Source: a virus. From it: DNA of 62,649 bases. The translations under genes were made by a program, and so were the position numbers. The stretch is from positions 1 to 62,649 of IMG/VR virus record IMGVR_UViG_3300017708_000776. One strand, given 5' to 3'. Shown here piece after piece: positions 11,753 to 62,649 of the stretch. A model generated the notes under the pieces. It saw only the letters and a list, made by a program, of their open reading frames with translations, was not told the DNA's origin and searched no databases. How positions within the stretch are numbered: the stretch's first letter is position 1; each line of letters begins with the position of its first letter.

Positions 11753-11781
11753 ATTATATCACAGTTTCAAAATGTTGTCAA
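11753..11781 (-). promoter_or_regulatory. Early sigma-70-like promoter for gp43
   Basis: Minus strand: -35 TTGACA at 11776-11781, 17-bp spacer, -10 TATAAT at 11753-11758 preceded by TGA. The -10 ends only 6 bases before the gp43 ATG, so the transcript may be nearly leaderless. Confidence 0.85.
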
Positions 11782-18381: not shown

Positions 18382-18410
18382 ATTATACCACACTCTGACC
18401 TGAGTGTCAA
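18382..18410 (-). promoter_or_regulatory. Early sigma-70-like promoter for gp45
   Basis: Minus strand: consensus -35 TTGACA at 18405-18410, 17-bp spacer, -10 TATAAT at 18382-18387 preceded by TGG. It allows clamp production separately from gp46/gp47 upstream. Confidence 0.86.
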
Positions 18411-20116: not shown

Positions 20117-21174
20117 GCAATTTCCAGTGCCTGTGCTTCAGTCATGAGTTCTCGCATCTGAATCTTAATCTTATCTTTGTCCAGATCCGTATCTACACCA
20201 TCAACGTATGAATCTACGATCTTTGGTGTATCATCAAACTCCATGTTATCATCATGTACATTTTCACCTGTGAACTCTTGAAAGTTCTCTGCAATCTTTA
20301 GTTCGTGTATATTCTCGTTTTGAATACGGTCAATAAACCGATCAAATAAAAATGTGTCTTTCTTATTGACAACCACAACCTTCACAAACTTCTGTGCACA
20401 CTGTGATACGTCATAGTTATTATAGTCTATTTTGTCGTCATTGTAAAGCACTTTATGAAATAAAGTATGTGGATTTAGAATCTTTTCCACTTCTCTAGTT
20501 TCTGTATCTATCACATGGAAATACTTTTTGTCATGTGCGTCAGACCAGAAGAACTCCATCTGTGATCCAAGATACCATATGTTATCCTGTTGTGATCCTA
20601 CATGGAAGTGACCAGTCAGTACCTTCTCAAACTTAGAAAAGATCTTACGATCCATACCATGTATGTTCTTGATACCACGCATCATTTCGAAACCATCTAG
20701 TTCAAGATGTGCACCACACCAATCAGCCTTACAGTTCTTAATGAACTTCATAGTATCGTCATAGTTCTCTTGGTTGATCCAAGGGATCATTGCCATCTTG
20801 AGAGATCCATACTCCATGACTGTGGGTTCCATAATGATATGGATCTCGTTCATGTAGTAACCAAGTAGTTCTTTCAGAGAATTTAAATCATTTGTATTTT
20901 TGTAATACGTGTCATGGTTGCCTGGGATAATATCCATTCGCATACCAAGTTCACGCATAGGATCTAGAAATGATTTACGACTATGGTTCTGTGCCTTAAA
21001 GTTCATGAACTTACGATTATCATAATAATCGCCAAGGTGAACAATTTGTTTGATATCATTGTCTTTACAATAAGGGAAAAAAACTTTAGAGTAAAAATCA
21101 GCAGCATTATTAAGAAAAATATCAGAACTATTTCTAGTACCACAGTGAGTGTCATTTAATACCGCAACCTTCAT
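20113..21174 (-). CDS. gp47: SbcD/Mre11-like nuclease subunit (gp47)
   Basis: Calcineurin-like phosphoesterase that forms the Mre11-Rad50-type complex with gp46. 353 residues (T4: 339). Metal-binding motifs in order: LNDTHCG (D-x-H), HLGDYYDNR, PGNHDTYYKN and GHFHVGSQ. It overlaps gp55 by 4 bases upstream. It provides resected 3' ends for recombination-dependent replication. Confidence 0.96.
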   Translation of the reverse strand: MKVAVLNDTHCGTRNSSDIFLNNAADFYSKVFFPYCKDNDIKQIVHLGDYYDNRKFMNFKAQNHSRKSFLDPMRELGMRMDIIPGNHDTYYKNTNDLNSLKELLGYYMNEIHIIMEPTVMEYGSLKMAMIPWINQENYDDTMKFIKNCKADWCGAHLELDGFEMMRGIKNIHGMDRKIFSKFEKVLTGHFHVGSQQDNIWYLGSQMEFFWSDAHDKKYFHVIDTETREVEKILNPHTLFHKVLYNDDKIDYNNYDVSQCAQKFVKVVVVNKKDTFLFDRFIDRIQNENIHELKIAENFQEFTGENVHDDNMEFDDTPKIVDSYVDGVDTDLDKDKIKIQMRELMTEAQALEIA

Positions 21175-21767
21175 TTAAGAAAGTCCGACAAGTCTGAGTC
21201 AGCATGTACTGCACGTTTCTTTCTTTGTTTTTCTTCTTTAGCAAATGCTTTCACTTCTGTATCCTGTGTTCTTACTTTGTCTATACGATCTCTGAGTGTG
21301 TCAACAAAAGATCCAACCACATTCATTGCGTAGTCATCACTCATGTCACCATCAACAAAACTTTCTATTCCAGATCTTGTTAAGTATTTTAATTTAATGT
21401 CTTGTTGTTTTTTCTCTTTGGCAATCCTGCGTAGAAACGCATACCATGTTATTTGTGTAAAGTATGCAAACGCATTTGGTTTACCAGTTCGGGTTGCGGC
21501 CTCTATGTCGTAGTTCTCTACTGCTTTCAAACAATTTTCAACTGCATCCATGACCATTTCTTCGCGGTATGTGTAGCGAATAAAATTAGATTTGTGAGAC
21601 AAACCTTCAGCGATACTAAGAAAACACTGAGCTATATAATTTGGTACTACTGGAAGAGTTTTACTTGCTTGCTTTGCTTCGTTAACTGTTTTGACATAAC
21701 TGACAACTGCCTGAGAAAAATCAGCGTTATTAACGTAGTGTTCGCTTTTTCTATTTTTTCGTGGCAT
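21171..21767 (-). CDS. gp55: Late-transcription sigma factor (gp55)
   Basis: Sigma-70-family factor that directs host RNA polymerase to TATAAATA late promoters. 198 residues (T4: 185). The conserved core reads MVMDAVENCLKAVENYD, then NAFAYFTQITWYAFLRRIAK, corresponding to sigma region 2 (core binding and -10 recognition). The final DSDLSDFLK is a candidate clamp-binding tail for gp45-dependent activation. At least six intergenic TATAAATA elements in the window fit its expected target. It has its own early promoter. Confidence 0.93.
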   Translation of the reverse strand: MPRKNRKSEHYVNNADFSQAVVSYVKTVNEAKQASKTLPVVPNYIAQCFLSIAEGLSHKSNFIRYTYREEMVMDAVENCLKAVENYDIEAATRTGKPNAFAYFTQITWYAFLRRIAKEKKQQDIKLKYLTRSGIESFVDGDMSDDYAMNVVGSFVDTLRDRIDKVRTQDTEVKAFAKEEKQRKKRAVHADSDLSDFLK

Positions 21768-21789
21768 TTCAATTTCCTTTCATAACTAT

Positions 21790-21818
21790 ATTATACCAAA
21801 AATATAAGGTAATGTAAA
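21790..21818 (-). promoter_or_regulatory. Early sigma-70-like promoter for gp55
   Basis: Minus strand: -35 TTTACA at 21813-21818, 17-bp spacer, -10 TATAAT at 21790-21795 preceded by TGG. It stands back to back with the plus-strand promoter at 21854-21882. Confidence 0.85.
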
Positions 21819-21853
21819 ATGTTATTTTTTTATTTCAAACATAAAAATAATGC

Positions 21854-21882
21854 TTGACAGAATCGTAAAATAGGTGTATAAT
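21854..21882 (+). promoter_or_regulatory. Plus-strand consensus promoter, antisense to the gene cluster
   Basis: Plus strand: perfect -35 TTGACA at 21854-21859, 17-bp spacer, perfect -10 TATAAT at 21877-21882. It is as good as any minus-strand early promoter here but faces the other way. Transcription would start near 21889, pass the G-run at about 21903-21908 and run antisense into the 21913-22404 gene and uvsW. No plus-strand gene is evident downstream. The 145-base gap it lies in is otherwise AT-rich and non-coding. Confidence 0.72.
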
Positions 21883-21912
21883 TAATATGCGCCTTTAGGA
21901 TAGGGGGGAATA

Positions 21913-22404
21913 CTAGTGTATCTTATCTGAGGGCGGGAAGAGATGTATGATGTTTGTGTCTCCCGAATCAAGATCCATTTGGGTTTCTAACAACCTATCC
22001 TCATAAAACTTTTCTTGTAAGTACTCTGCAATCTCATCTCTCGACATATCTGTTGTGTCCATCATGACTTCGTCTATGTTAAGACTTCGTTTCCCCTTCA
22101 TATCCTGAGATTCTAGAATGATGTCGAGGGCGTTTTTGAAATGTAACTTGAGTATGGAAGAGGGTGTCGCCTCACCGAGAATGTGATCTGGATTGATTGC
22201 ACTTAATTCATTTATATCCTCTTGGAATGAAACCCAAGGTTTGAATGAATAATACCTGACATTCTGATCGAAGTCTTCCGCATGAAATACTTTTAAGATC
22301 TTACGAGCAATGATATCTCCATTATGGTTATCAGTCTCATCGACATCCATAACCTCACAAACAATCTCATCGTTGTTAGTTAATTTAAATTGTCTTAGTT
22401 TCAT
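21913..22404 (-). CDS. Conserved-type hypothetical protein after uvsW
   Basis: A 163-residue protein starting MKLRQFKLTNNDEIVCEVMD, which looks like a small beta-barrel (Sm-like) N-terminal half, followed by WVSFQEDINELSAINPDHIL and an acidic helical C-terminus. It overlaps uvsW by 4 bases, so it is made with the helicase. I recognise no named family. A role in recombination, repair or RNA handling is suggested only by place. Confidence 0.75.
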   Translation of the reverse strand: MKLRQFKLTNNDEIVCEVMDVDETDNHNGDIIARKILKVFHAEDFDQNVRYYSFKPWVSFQEDINELSAINPDHILGEATPSSILKLHFKNALDIILESQDMKGKRSLNIDEVMMDTTDMSRDEIAEYLQEKFYEDRLLETQMDLDSGDTNIIHLFPPSDKIH

Positions 22405-23891
22405 AGATCTATCACTACCGTTTTACAATTGAACTGTTCTTTTTTATATATTTTTTCTCGTTCTTCAGAATGTAATAGAGAATAATTCCTTCTCTTCATC
22501 CAACTAATATCATCACTAATATCATACAATGTGGTTTCCCTTCCATCATCACTTTTTCTTAGGCCTCTACCAATAGATTGCAACACTCTAATTTGTGATT
22601 TGCTAGGTGATGCAAAGATTATATTGTGTAGGTTTCTTATATTTATACCTGTGGAAAACGTACCGAGTGATGCAACCACAATTGCATTATCCATTCCTTC
22701 TACGATACCTCGTATTGCTTCCCTGTCAGATGTATTAGTTTCACCAGATACAAAGTATACTTTTCTGTCTTCTGCTTTGTCTCTTATTAAGTTATGTATA
22801 GGTTTACCATGTTTGTCAACATAATTGAATAATACTAGTGTGTTACCTTCTAAGTCTAGTGCTAGGTTCCTGATAAATTTATTCCGTTTTTCGTGGCCAA
22901 CGATAAAGTCAATTTCTTCTTGGTAGGTTTTTTTCCCGAAAGTTTTACGTAACTCTCGTCCATATGAAAGAATGAGTCTCCTGATAGTGAGCGGGGCAAG
23001 AGTATCGTTGTCCTGTAATTGCTTCGTAGTGACGACTTTATATATCTTCCCGAATAGTCCTTGTAAAACCAACTCATGCGTTTGTGATCCATCTAGTGTT
23101 CCTGTTGTTCCAAATCTATATTCTGCTTCTGTACATTTGTTCATTATGTTCATCAATGACTTTGACTTGAACCCATGCACCTCATCACCAAAGACACACC
23201 CAAATTGTTCGAACCATACTTTAGGCATTTTGTAGATAGATTGCCATGTAGATATCACGATTGCGGAGTCAACTGCTTTGTCTTTACCAGAGTATATCTT
23301 ATGCATCCCACCTTCAGACATACCATAGTTTATAAAGTCACTGTGCATCTGTTCTACCAATGAAGTAGTAGGAACAATGACCAATACTCTACCACCTTTA
23401 GGATATGACCGACCATCAGTCAACATTGCCAACCAGAACCTTGCAAGTGCATAGATCATATATGACTTACCAGAACCTGTCGGTGATAATAGAATTGCAC
23501 GTTTACGAACCAACGCCTCTCCCACTGACTGAAACTGATAGTCTCTCAATGGGAATGGTAAATCTAAATCATTTAAAAATTCAGTAAGAACTCTGGGTTT
23601 GATGTGAGTTCTATCATCTGGTTTACCGTATTGACTTTCCTCTGCTAATAGGTTATACTGTCTCTTGTCAGAGAACTCCAAAAGATGATAGTACAACCCA
23701 GCGGGTAGTGTACGTTCTCTTAGTGTGAAGAGACGTATCTTTCCATCCCACAATTTATTGCGGAATGCAGGCATGAACTTGTAGCCAGGCACAAAGAACG
23801 AAAAGTATTCGTTTAGTTCTTGCGCTGTACCACTGTCACATTCAATTTGTAAATCGGAATGGTTTAGTTTCCTGACTCGAATTGCTTCCAC
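22401..23891 (-). CDS. uvsW: UvsW DNA/RNA helicase
   Basis: Superfamily 2 helicase that unwinds branched DNA and R-loops and shuts down origin-dependent replication. 496 residues (T4: 502). Motif I LLSPTGSGKSYMIYALA (near 137), motif II GDEVH (near 234), motif III TTGTLDGS, and motif VI QSIGRGLRKSDDGR. The N-terminal 100 residues form the substrate-recognition domain of UvsW. It overlaps uvsY by 28 bases. Confidence 0.95.
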   Translation of the reverse strand: MEAIRVRKLNHSDLQIECDSGTAQELNEYFSFFVPGYKFMPAFRNKLWDGKIRLFTLRERTLPAGLYYHLLEFSDKRQYNLLAEESQYGKPDDRTHIKPRVLTEFLNDLDLPFPLRDYQFQSVGEALVRKRAILLSPTGSGKSYMIYALARFWLAMLTDGRSYPKGGRVLVIVPTTSLVEQMHSDFINYGMSEGGMHKIYSGKDKAVDSAIVISTWQSIYKMPKVWFEQFGCVFGDEVHGFKSKSLMNIMNKCTEAEYRFGTTGTLDGSQTHELVLQGLFGKIYKVVTTKQLQDNDTLAPLTIRRLILSYGRELRKTFGKKTYQEEIDFIVGHEKRNKFIRNLALDLEGNTLVLFNYVDKHGKPIHNLIRDKAEDRKVYFVSGETNTSDREAIRGIVEGMDNAIVVASLGTFSTGINIRNLHNIIFASPSKSQIRVLQSIGRGLRKSDDGRETTLYDISDDISWMKRRNYSLLHSEEREKIYKKEQFNCKTVVIDL

Positions 23892-24310
23892 TTAATTATA
23901 TTACCTATTGTCTGATGTCGCCAGTTAAGATTATTTATAATCTCACTTAACGTCTCAATCACAGTCTTGTAATACTCTATCTTCTCTTCAGACTTCTGTA
24001 TCTCTGGATCTGAATTGTAGTAGTGTTCCATTTCACCTTTGAGTATCTTTAGACCGTTAAAAGGATCTGGTTCCCAACCTTTCTCTTCTAACTCTTCTTG
24101 AGACATCTTTCCATTGTAATATAACCACTTGTCTTTCAATAAAGACTTCTGTGCAAACTCTGCACGTTTCAACATGAGTTTTGTTTGGGATAAAATTTCT
24201 AGATACTTGGCATGTAACGTAGGAGTCACACGTGATGATTCATCAAGTCGTATCTGATTTATTTCGCAGTCCTTAGACCACATTTCATGTATTTGTTTCA
24301 AGTCAATCAT
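23864..24310 (-). CDS. uvsY: UvsY recombination mediator
   Basis: Loads UvsX on gp32-coated single-stranded DNA. 148 residues (T4: 137). The pattern LKQIHEMWSKDCEINQIRLD, TPTLHAKYLEILSQTKLML and NWRHQTIGNIIKWKQFESG matches T4 UvsY along its length; the protein is all-helical. Its overlap with uvsW and a dedicated early promoter mirror the T4 uvsY-uvsW region. Confidence 0.92.
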   Translation of the reverse strand: MIDLKQIHEMWSKDCEINQIRLDESSRVTPTLHAKYLEILSQTKLMLKRAEFAQKSLLKDKWLYYNGKMSQEELEEKGWEPDPFNGLKILKGEMEHYYNSDPEIQKSEEKIEYYKTVIETLSEIINNLNWRHQTIGNIIKWKQFESGN

Positions 24311-24316
24311 AAAGTT

Positions 24317-24345
24317 ATTATATCACAATATTTGTATAATGTAAA
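24317..24345 (-). promoter_or_regulatory. Early sigma-70-like promoter for uvsY-uvsW
   Basis: Minus strand: -35 TTTACA at 24340-24345, 17-bp spacer, -10 TATAAT at 24317-24322 preceded by TGA. Lies in the 40-base gap after the propeller fibre gene, restarting early transcription after a late gene. Confidence 0.85.
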
Positions 24346-24350
24346 GTTAT

Positions 24351-25829
24351 TTATGCCGCCGCACCTGAAGCACCACAAGTATATGTTGACCTATATTCTA
24401 GATCTCCAAAATCTTGACCATTACTTAGAGTATCCATAGTGATGTACTGAATTTCATTACTTCCACCATTTGTTATGCCACCAAATTTTGTACCTCTTGT
24501 TGCATTATTTGCTGACCCTGAAAAGTATTCACCATATCCATTGTTGTTTAACTGGTTTGTTAATAAATTACCAAATGCAGTTGCGTTGCTTGGAGTCTGA
24601 ATTGAAATATATTCAATTGCAGTATAGTCATTTTCTGTACGACCCCAGAATATTCCTCTATCTCCAGCTCCTACTGCAGTACCAGCTATACCAGTTCCTC
24701 CATTCCAATCACCAAAATCTTGAGCAGTTGTCATAGAAACATTAGACCAATATTGTATTTGATAATCTGATGCACCTGTGTTTCCACCACGAACAACTCT
24801 ACTATTATCTGTCACATTACCATTTTGTGCACAAGTGGTCTGCAAAGTACCAAAACTTGTGGCATCGCCTGGAGTATCTATTACAATTGTTTGAATAGTA
24901 TCGACATATCCACTGTTAGCATTTCCTCCAGAGTGGAATCCATATGCTCCTGAGTGTATTCCATCTGCTACAGAGTTTTCGGTAAGCAGATCACCACCAA
25001 AATCAGTAGCAGTAGCTGGAGTTGCTATTGTTATTATTTCTATTTCAGCATTTCTATATGTTGCTGACCTAGGCCCGCCCATGAATACTGCTTTAGTACC
25101 ATTACTTAATGCAGTATGACCACCATCTTCATGAGTTGATATCAAACCACCAAAACCTGTTGCATTACCTAGTGTTGCAATATCAAATTGACCAATGTCA
25201 GAACCAGTGCCAGACTTAATGTTACCAGCATAAACAGCCCTATCACCATACCACACACCACCACCTCCACCTGCAGGATTATATTCAATAGTTACTGCTT
25301 TGGTAAGAAAATTTACACCATCAGACCATTTAAATGTGTAGATAAAGTCTCCGTTAGAGTCTGTTAGATTACCTGCAGCGACTGCAGTTCCAATTTGAAC
25401 TTTCGTTTTTGGAGTGAATGTCCATACTGAAGAATCATTAGATATAGTTGCCATGTATTGAGCTGAGTCAGATGCAAAACTCATATTTATTATGGATGCA
25501 TCGTCCGAGTCTAAGGCCTTAGCAGTTACTACGAGAGGAGTTGCAGAATCTACAATACTATATGATGCATCTGGTTCAGTGTCCCAATACGGAGCAAAAG
25601 AACTTTGTACCATATCTATATTGTACCAACCATTACCCTCACTAAAATATAATTTTTGTCCGACTAACGCCTTAATTCCTACGGAAAGACCTGTCATAGG
25701 TAGAGAGTCTAATGTGTCATAAACAGCGACAGGAGTAGGAGTGGTTATTGCACTTATCGCCGCAGAATCTAATCCAGCAGTACCTTGTTGTTCTTGTTTA
25801 TTCTGTCTCTGATTGCTTAGTCTTGTCAT
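24351..25829 (-). CDS. Modular tail-tip protein with six-repeat kelch-like domain (paralogue 1)
   Basis: A 492-residue likely receptor-binding or fibre-tip protein. Residues 1-45 are a short anchor; about 50-185 is the module shared by six genes here (TLDSLPMTGLS, EGNGWYN, a cadherin/Ig-like SVWTFTPK...GNLTDSNGDFIYTFKWSDG). Residues about 195-492 hold six repeats of roughly 45-55 residues marked by a DFG-L-like turn and a G-G strand end (e.g. NGTKAVFMGG), closing with a C-terminal SGAAA strand. This predicts a six-bladed beta-propeller. It starts inside the previous gene by 32 bases. Confidence 0.82.
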   Translation of the reverse strand: MTRLSNQRQNKQEQQGTAGLDSAAISAITTPTPVAVYDTLDSLPMTGLSVGIKALVGQKLYFSEGNGWYNIDMVQSSFAPYWDTEPDASYSIVDSATPLVVTAKALDSDDASIINMSFASDSAQYMATISNDSSVWTFTPKTKVQIGTAVAAGNLTDSNGDFIYTFKWSDGVNFLTKAVTIEYNPAGGGGGVWYGDRAVYAGNIKSGTGSDIGQFDIATLGNATGFGGLISTHEDGGHTALSNGTKAVFMGGPRSATYRNAEIEIITIATPATATDFGGDLLTENSVADGIHSGAYGFHSGGNANSGYVDTIQTIVIDTPGDATSFGTLQTTCAQNGNVTDNSRVVRGGNTGASDYQIQYWSNVSMTTAQDFGDWNGGTGIAGTAVGAGDRGIFWGRTENDYTAIEYISIQTPSNATAFGNLLTNQLNNNGYGEYFSGSANNATRGTKFGGITNGGSNEIQYITMDTLSNGQDFGDLEYRSTYTCGASGAAA

Positions 25830-60657: not shown

Positions 60658-62649
60658 TTAGTTCTCTATTAGTATCCAACCATTTGTGGCGTTATAGTAC
60701 ACAAGACCTATACCTGCACGATCAATGTCTATTACCAGATCGGTTTCACTACCTTGTATCTTATGTCCGTTTCTATTTATTGTTATGTTGTTAGTCGATG
60801 CATTACCAGTTCCATCTAAAATTCTTACCTCATCACCAAAATTTGCATTTAAAGGTAATGTTAGAGTTTGGGAAACACTAGAAGTATCAACAATGTTTCT
60901 AGAACCAGATGTTATTGGTGTAGCTGTAGTTCTTTCTACCCAAGTTCTAGGATTTGTTGCAAGTCTTGTTGTTATAATACCTTGTGCTTCTGCGGCATCA
61001 ATACCAATATTGTTACCAGTCAACTTGGTAATTGTCAAGTTGTCTCCTACATCGGCAGCATCATTCAAGGTTAATACAGAACCTGAACTATCTTTGAAAT
61101 CCTCAGTTCTTAGTAATAAACCATTTAAATATACATTGACTAATCCAGTAGAATATGATAATGTTTGACCATTTATATCCGTACCACTAAAGTGTGATTG
61201 ACCAGCAGTAGCAGTATATTCAAATGTATCGAATGTAAGAGGTGTCGCAACAGAACTTAGATCTGCAGGCATGAATGTAGAAATTTTTACTTCATCCGAA
61301 GCAGACACTGGTGTATTAAAGGTTACTCTATTTCCATCTGTGGCAACATAATCCACAGAGTCTACAAGAGCGATACCATTTAAATATACAACCAACCCTG
61401 ATTGTTGATATAGAAGTGCTTCACCATACCTATCATCACCACTGAATATTGTTTGACCGTGGTCTGCAACGAAATCAAATGTCTTACCAGAGAACTCTTG
61501 TGCATTGAATGTTTGTATTATAATTTCATCTGTAACAATTGCTGAGTCTGTTAAGATTATTTTATTTCCAAGTGTAGTAATATAATCTGTACGTTCATCT
61601 AACAACACATCATTTTTGAATACCTGAACACCACCACTAAAACCTAATCCATTACCAGTCAGAGTTTTTCCTGCGTGACCTGCAAAATGAAATTGTTTTG
61701 TGTTTAGACTTGATGCAACGTTTGCGGATGTAACCACAACACTCATAAAGTCTGCAGAGTCTGCGGCCTCTAATAAGGTTACGGTTGAATTTGTTTTTGT
61801 GTAGTCGTTTGTCTCCGATAGTAAGATACCGTTTAAGTAAACCTGTATAGCACCAGTAGTCAGATCTAATGTTCTACCGTTGTTATCTGTACCTGAGAAT
61901 ACTGTATCTCCAGAGTCTGCAGTAAATTCAAATGATGTTTCATTTAAAGTCTGTCTAGAATTGACACGACCAATTGTTTCTATTATAGTAACTGAATAAC
62001 CACTATCCAAAGCATCAGAAAATGTTATTCTGTCTGTGAGTAGAGCGTAATCTGTTGTTTCTTCTTGAAGGACACCGTTTAGATAAACTTCTGCATTTGA
62101 AGGATCTATTGAAAGTGTAGAACCAAACTTGTCATCACCTTGGAATAAAACTTGACCTGCAGTTGCGTCAAAGAAGAACTTATTAACTTCTAGTGTACCA
62201 CGAGCATTTACAGAAGTTCTTGCTTGTACATAGTCACTATCTATTATACTAACGATGTTTGCAGAATCTACTGTACCAGATCCACCACCGCTACCACCAC
62301 TTGGAGGTGTGTACTTGATGATTTGTACTACGTCATTTAATGTAGCTGCGGCAGTCAATGTGACTGTAGAAGAATCCGTCAATGTGAAATCGTCTGAGTC
62401 TACTAAGAGGATACCATTCAAATAGACGTTTATCTGTGTGTCTGAATCGTCATACGACAGTATATTACCATTCGCATCAGAGTCTGTAAATGCTAACTGA
62501 CCTGAGTCTGCAGTGTATACGAACTTAGTAAGAGTGATACCGTCTGCAGTAGAATGACTACCACCTCCTCCAGATCCACCTGTATTGGTTGATGGATTGA
62601 ATGTTAAGACACCAGTACTATTGTCATATGCAAGAGCACCACCACCAGA
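60658..62649 (-). CDS. VYLNG-repeat tail-fibre protein, 5' end outside window
   Basis: The frame is open to base 62649, so the start lies beyond the window; 663 residues are visible. It contains at least six copies of a unit of roughly 70-85 residues built as F-x-F-TA-x-xGQ-x-x-FSG-D-x-x-G, then VYLNGILL-x-E-x-x-DY, then a strand pair (e.g. GAIQVYLNGILLSETNDYT and NAEVYLNGVLQEETTDYALL). An IDSDYVQAR element and Gly/Ser linkers (PPSGGSGGGSGTVDS) occur near the visible N-terminal part. The end folds as FNGH-like GNASTNNITINRNGHKIQGS, a common phage-fibre C-terminal motif. Likely a long fibre shaft. Confidence 0.8.
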   Translation of the reverse strand, partial: SGGGALAYDNSTGVLTFNPSTNTGGSGGGGSHSTADGITLTKFVYTADSGQLAFTDSDANGNILSYDDSDTQINVYLNGILLVDSDDFTLTDSSTVTLTAAATLNDVVQIIKYTPPSGGSGGGSGTVDSANIVSIIDSDYVQARTSVNARGTLEVNKFFFDATAGQVLFQGDDKFGSTLSIDPSNAEVYLNGVLQEETTDYALLTDRITFSDALDSGYSVTIIETIGRVNSRQTLNETSFEFTADSGDTVFSGTDNNGRTLDLTTGAIQVYLNGILLSETNDYTKTNSTVTLLEAADSADFMSVVVTSANVASSLNTKQFHFAGHAGKTLTGNGLGFSGGVQVFKNDVLLDERTDYITTLGNKIILTDSAIVTDEIIIQTFNAQEFSGKTFDFVADHGQTIFSGDDRYGEALLYQQSGLVVYLNGIALVDSVDYVATDGNRVTFNTPVSASDEVKISTFMPADLSSVATPLTFDTFEYTATAGQSHFSGTDINGQTLSYSTGLVNVYLNGLLLRTEDFKDSSGSVLTLNDAADVGDNLTITKLTGNNIGIDAAEAQGIITTRLATNPRTWVERTTATPITSGSRNIVDTSSVSQTLTLPLNANFGDEVRILDGTGNASTNNITINRNGHKIQGSETDLVIDIDRAGIGLVYYNATNGWILIEN

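Follow-up and report, generated by a model that had tools for sequence, protein, structure and literature searches.

The intergenic region between the uvsW operon and gene 55 of a marine T4-like phage carries a promoter that faces against all the genes around it, which raises the question of what this promoter is for. The window, that is the whole stretch of DNA analysed, is a 62.6-kb virus record (62,649 nucleotides; IMG/VR IMGVR_UViG_3300017708_000776) assigned to marine T4-like phages by its gene neighbourhood and its relatives. The minus strand carries all its genes. Read from high to low coordinates, uvsY (23864–24310; phrog_231, E 6.9e-38) is followed by the uvsW helicase gene (22401–23891; phrog_16, E 1.2e-107), by a phrog_471 (“methylamine utilization”) gene that is the last of the operon (21913–22404), by a gap of 145 bases (21768–21912), and by the genes coding the late sigma factor gp55 (21171–21767; phrog_234, E 1.1e-52), gp47 and gp46. 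An earlier note on this DNA had singled out the gap as AT-rich and proposed that a plus-strand promoter within it could make an antisense or regulatory RNA against the operon, or an origin primer that UvsW would later unwind. The gap has the length described, and its left part (21768–21853) has a GC content of 17%, against 38% for the window.

The gap contains two back-to-back sigma-70 promoters, one per strand. The promoter that faces the operon has the −35 hexamer TTGACA at 21854–21859 and the −10 hexamer TATAAT at 21877–21882, on the plus strand and spaced by 17 bp, exactly as had been read before. The gp55 promoter (TTTACA-17-TATAAT; 21790–21818, minus strand) points the other way, and an AT-rich stretch (21819–21853) separates the two −35 elements. 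The window has three perfect sigma-70 pairs where shuffles lead one to expect 0.18, and of the three only the pair at 21854–21882 belongs to the plus strand. Note that the other two, at 11753–11781 and 18382–18410, are on the minus strand in the sense of the genes, the second lying ahead of the gp45 gene and overlapping the end of the gp46 gene. The host sigma-70 form of the antisense promoter supports its description as early-type. To our knowledge, these marine T4-like phages have neither MotA nor AsiA.

Conservation was assessed in the best 80 gp55 relatives found in IMG/VR, a sample chosen by gp55 similarity rather than at random, to which the named phages C48C1, P-SSM4, S-SSM7, S-ShM2, Syn33, Syn9 and Mosig were added. 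The gap upstream of gp55 was read on the antisense strand in each, and 66 gaps were left after removal of near-duplicates. An antisense promoter is present in 66/66 of these non-redundant intact gaps, which come from SAR11-phage and cyanophage relatives. Its −10 is exactly TATAAT in 59 of the 66, its spacing is 17 bp in 44 and 16 bp in 22, and its −35 varies across the family (TTTACA, TGTACA, TTGACA). The site thus has the conserved −35 and −10 hexamers, 16–18 bp apart, that define a sigma-70 promoter. Both hexamers are unchanged in the alignment of 13 close loci, TTGACA being identical in 13/13; the earlier note had named a missing −35/−10 pair in close relatives as one of the observations that would refute its reading, and a search for such a loss showed that the pair is kept. 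The exact 18-mer GCGCCTTTAGGATAGGGG, which begins at the predicted transcription start, is common to 12 IMG/VR contigs. HTVC008M also has an antisense promoter in its uvsW/gp55 gap (at 80295, minus strand). The one clear exception is Melnitz-2, whose gp55 gap has no clear antisense promoter. The annotation of this methylophage (L110) places a small minus-strand ORF over the gp55 start. In the T4-type phage Shfl2 the genes around gene 55 are arranged in another order. Comparison of the gap with the named phages by blastn gave only matches that are unrelated or AT-rich, and of two exact-motif scans for further copies one returned just two contigs already known as carriers and the other returned none. 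Literature searches of partial coverage found no description of an element at the uvsW/gp55 gap.

Could such a promoter arise by chance in AT-rich DNA, or reflect spurious divergent transcription devoid of function? Sigma-70-like sites are frequent in AT-rich gaps, and bidirectional promoters are reported to be common in bacteria (PMC10268837). As a control, all same-strand gaps of the window, and those of relatives that are complete or large, were scored for their best antisense-strand promoter. The uvsW/gp55 gap ranks first in six of the eight genomes scored (the window, Mosig, Syn33, Syn9, G001 and HTVC008M), shares the first place in C48C1 and is only 16th in Melnitz-2; the gap of a further relative, G002, is missing from the ranking as the simple ORF caller missed it. 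A chance promoter was rejected on the excess of perfect pairs, the conservation in 13 loci and this ranking, and it is also contradicted by the conservation in 66 gaps and by the constrained leader described below. Moreover, the predicted starts of the two divergent promoters are ~105 bp apart in the window, instead of nearly overlapping as in one symmetric promoter. Divergent transcription out of one intergenic region is a feature shared with bidirectional bacterial promoters, but the present element differs from them in having two full promoters, the non-coding one followed by a constrained leader, and in that it can exist without its partner. Chance or functionless transcription is therefore a very improbable explanation, and the site is almost certainly a conserved functional promoter.

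The position of the element is conserved with respect to the operon. Wherever the upstream sequence is long enough, the antisense promoter has uvsW 0.5–2 kb in front of it. Most loci have phrog_471 as the final gene of the operon, and in the others this place is taken by one of a small number of different genes; the gene that the predicted antisense transcript overlaps first differs among phages. Genes intervene between the element and gp55 in five loci (L057, L085, L087, L092 and L095), where the element stays at the end of the operon, and it is also kept where the uvsW side has received genes (L028 type). Since insertions are tolerated on either flank, the element forms an independent unit located between the uvsW operon and gp55. 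Its presence without a divergent sense promoter in L095, L085 and L092 rules out that it is a by-product of the gp55 divergent promoter. Within the 66 gaps the antisense and gp55 promoters are back-to-back in every case. Their −35 elements are 35 bp apart in the window and overlap in a palindrome in P-SSM4, Syn33 and Syn9; the palindrome is TTGACAAACTTGTCAA in P-SSM4 and Syn9.

What the promoter makes is very probably non-coding. Each plus-strand ORF of at least 110 aa is contained in, or overlaps, a longer ORF of the minus strand, so no plus-strand gene follows the promoter; the ORF check thereby confirmed the earlier reading of the gene cluster as entirely minus-strand. A protein-coding leader after the SD-like GGAGG was rejected: a start codon is lacking in 18/66 leaders and the ORF lengths of the others are unrelated, the window having an ORF of 4 codons only. 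Rfam gave no match above the family gathering score, and no tRNA was found. A long structured RNA was rejected as well, the 112-nt fold having a z of −0.69 and conservation dropping past +33. Intrinsic terminators were scored neither in or near the gap on either strand nor on the plus strand from 21889 to 25005. Because the promoter and the first ~30 transcribed bases are preserved with no protein to make, the antisense promoter probably yields a working non-coding RNA. Conservation thus lends strong support to the earlier proposal of a real promoter with a predicted antisense or regulatory RNA product, and we read the element as a predicted dedicated early non-coding cis-acting transcription unit.

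Transcription is predicted to start near 21889. The bases that follow the −10 (21883–21915, plus strand; GCGCCTTTAGGATAGGGGGGAATACTA) form a conserved initially transcribed region that is G-rich and R-loop-prone. Pairwise identity among representative rows of the alignment is 0.990 in 21883–21915, against 0.580 in 21936–22010, which is the coding end of the phrog_471 gene; by geometry, the predicted transcript overlaps the 3′ end of this gene from 21913 on. Constraint on the transcribed stretch ends at about +33, selection bearing on the first ~30 bases rather than on RNA length. The motif GGGG is found in 30/66 antisense leaders and in 0/66 leaders before gp55. R-loop favourability was estimated from nearest-neighbour energies (RNA-DNA minus DNA-DNA), a measure that any G-rich stretch passes: by this estimate the leaders of the relatives have a median at the 0.6th percentile of their own locus, and the window leader is at the 0.03 percentile of the plus strand of the window. 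By the same measure the leaders of P-SSM4 and Mosig, a cyanophage and a SAR11 phage, are unremarkable and not R-loop-prone. A TATACT-like hexamer is present 22–36 nt past the −10 in 42/66 relatives, against 2.4 (maximum 8) in shuffles. Its window form is AATACT (21909–21914, plus strand), about 26 nt past the −10. Sigma-70-dependent promoter-proximal pause sites of the lambda pR′ type also feature a −10-like hexamer in the initially transcribed region; the hexamer described here differs from them by its position farther downstream (about +20) and by not being followed by a late operon.

In relatives, an inverted repeat lies directly after the −10, its centre 6.5–9 nt downstream, at the expected transcription start. 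A perfect stem of at least 5 bp is found at this place in 25/66 gaps, against 3.3 (maximum 9) in dinucleotide shuffles; none of these gaps has such a stem at its gp55 promoter (0/66). The arms of the dyad, often AT-only, vary among phages yet stay complementary (AAACTATAGTTT, AGACTGTAGTCT, TAACTGTAGTTA, AAAGCATGCTTT, AGGCATGTGCCT, AAGGCAGCTGCCTT, CATATAGCGATATG). Compensatory changes occur at 5/5 pairs in the 12-nt dyad class and at 4/5 in the 14-nt class, and the covariation score of these classes was reached by 0/500 shuffles. Note that the rows were picked for having a dyad, which makes the percentage paired a circular measure but does not affect the variety of pair types. After its −10, the window copy lacks any dyad of at least 4 bp. 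Some further occurrences are worth recording. The dyad sequence of the Syn9 and Syn33 elements recurs at one other promoter of the same genome, ~70 kb away (Syn9 52767 and Syn33 46935, both on the plus strand), at sites within or between small ORFs; the sequence is hence phage-specific, yet common to two loci per genome. Besides its uvsW/gp55 element, G001 has another strong hit to the element profile (L154:1234–1295, i.e. G001 61234–61295, plus strand; 29.3 bits, E 8e-7), which is located inside a minus-strand ORF (L154 981–1826), hence also antisense, and has its own dyad and GGAGGG...GTATACC.

A dyad at this position could be an operator, the element being a regulatory DNA site whose promoters serve mainly gp55 and whose antisense RNA is a by-product. 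The back-to-back arrangement in all gaps, the overlap of the cyanophage −35 elements in a palindrome and the single recurrence of the Syn9 and Syn33 dyad sequences are in line with this view. It is improbable nonetheless: the element stands apart from gp55 without a divergent partner promoter in L095, L085 and L092, no excess of dyads is seen at the start of gp55 itself, and dyad sequences that vary with compensatory changes suit a hairpin better than the site of one protein. Also unlikely, if somewhat less so, is a short trans-acting RNA of about 30–50 nt that would end near the TATAC hexamer and act via its G-rich stretch. The end of constraint near +33, the constant position of the TATACT-like hexamer, about +19 to +25 relative to the predicted start, and the independence of the unit from both neighbours would fit such an RNA. 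Against it, no terminator is found at the boundary, there is neither a shared fold nor an Rfam match, and the RNA would contain only half of the dyad because the dyad straddles the predicted start.

A more serious possibility, which nevertheless falls short of being probable, is a cis-antisense brake on the uvsY-uvsW-phrog_471 operon that would act by collision or by pairing with the mRNA and keep UvsW low until late transcription. The constant place of uvsW in the path of the transcript, the attachment of the element to the operon end when genes are inserted before gp55, and the plus strand free of scored terminators up to 25005 all agree with a brake. The window also has a separate sigma-70 promoter for uvsY (TTTACA-17-TATAAT, 11/12 match; 24317–24345, minus strand), which is convergent with the antisense promoter. 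As a side observation, a late-type motif, TATAAATA, is present at most 120 nt upstream of uvsW. UvsW of T4 appears late and removes origin R-loops (PMC3016281). A precedent for antisense RNA in T4-like cyanophages is CfrI, the one confirmed case according to a review (PMC2984593). CfrI of cyanophage S-PM2 and the present element both occur in T4-like marine phages and are directed into a gene from its 3′ end (PMC2984593, PMC9602691); CfrI differs in that it belongs to a psbA/homing endonuclease locus, has about 225 nt and was seen experimentally, whereas the element at the end of the uvsW operon is far more widespread and is known from sequence alone. A brake, however, needs the promoter alone and leaves the conserved 33-nt leader, the covarying dyad and the TATAC hexamer unexplained. 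In addition, the first gene overlapped varies among phages, and a sigma-70 promoter before uvsY is not seen in many relatives, as scanned upstream of uvsY and uvsW in loci where neither gene is cut by a contig end.

The best explanation, which is held tentatively, is a dedicated early promoter for a cis-acting non-coding RNA that forms an R-loop and serves as an entry point for replication. Host RNA polymerase would start the RNA near 21889, early in infection and against the phrog_471-uvsW-uvsY operon, and the element would act in cis through the first ~30 transcribed bases. The G-rich nascent RNA would remain hybridised to the template, the small hairpin-forming dyad found at the start in most relatives may keep the displaced strand open, and the TATAC hexamer may be a site of RNA polymerase pausing. 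An early R-loop formed in this way would then be the entry point for the replisome, as in origins of the T4 oriF type, and UvsW, encoded alongside, could remove it later. The R-loop-prone leader, the end of constraint at ~+33 and the independence of the element from both neighbours favour this origin primer. Weighing against it are the unremarkable P-SSM4 and Mosig leaders, the window copy without a dyad, and two results on the surrounding DNA. GC skew, which gives no support to an origin, does not turn at the element in any of the complete relatives, where coding-strand bias may mask such a turn. No AT-rich unwinding element is found downstream, the GC content of 21936–22100 being 39% against 38% for the window; the AT-rich part of the gap lies upstream of the antisense promoter. 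An R-loop that primes replication is placed slightly ahead of an antisense brake, with low confidence in either.

In T4, oriF and oriG consist of a promoter plus an R-loop that is removed late by UvsW (PMC3016281). The element shares with them a promoter with a predicted non-coding transcript and the uvsY/uvsW neighbourhood, its R-loop being only predicted. The T4 origins use MotA middle promoters and a downstream AT-rich unwinding element, need no specific sequence and have no shared motif; the present element, unlike them, is of the sigma-70 type, has a conserved G-rich leader and has no unwinding element that could be found, on which ground it is not assigned to the T4 origin class. For Syn9, a review reports the prediction of a single theta origin (PMC2984593). 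A broader and more doubtful proposition is that marine T4-like phages use the element throughout the family as an RNA-primed replication origin, or as a replication switch, which would be composed of the promoter, a hairpin at the start site, the G-rich R-loop leader and the hexamer for pausing.

For the T4-like phages of SAR11 bacteria and marine picocyanobacteria, hardly any origins or cases of antisense control have been mapped, and the conserved non-coding promoter element offers a single 100-bp target for mapping and mutation. It links early transcription, R-loops and UvsW in these marine phages, the link through R-loops being a predicted one. If the family-wide reading is true, these phages would have a compact origin defined by its sequence, placed beside the gene of the helicase that dismantles it, where the origins of T4 have no shared motif.
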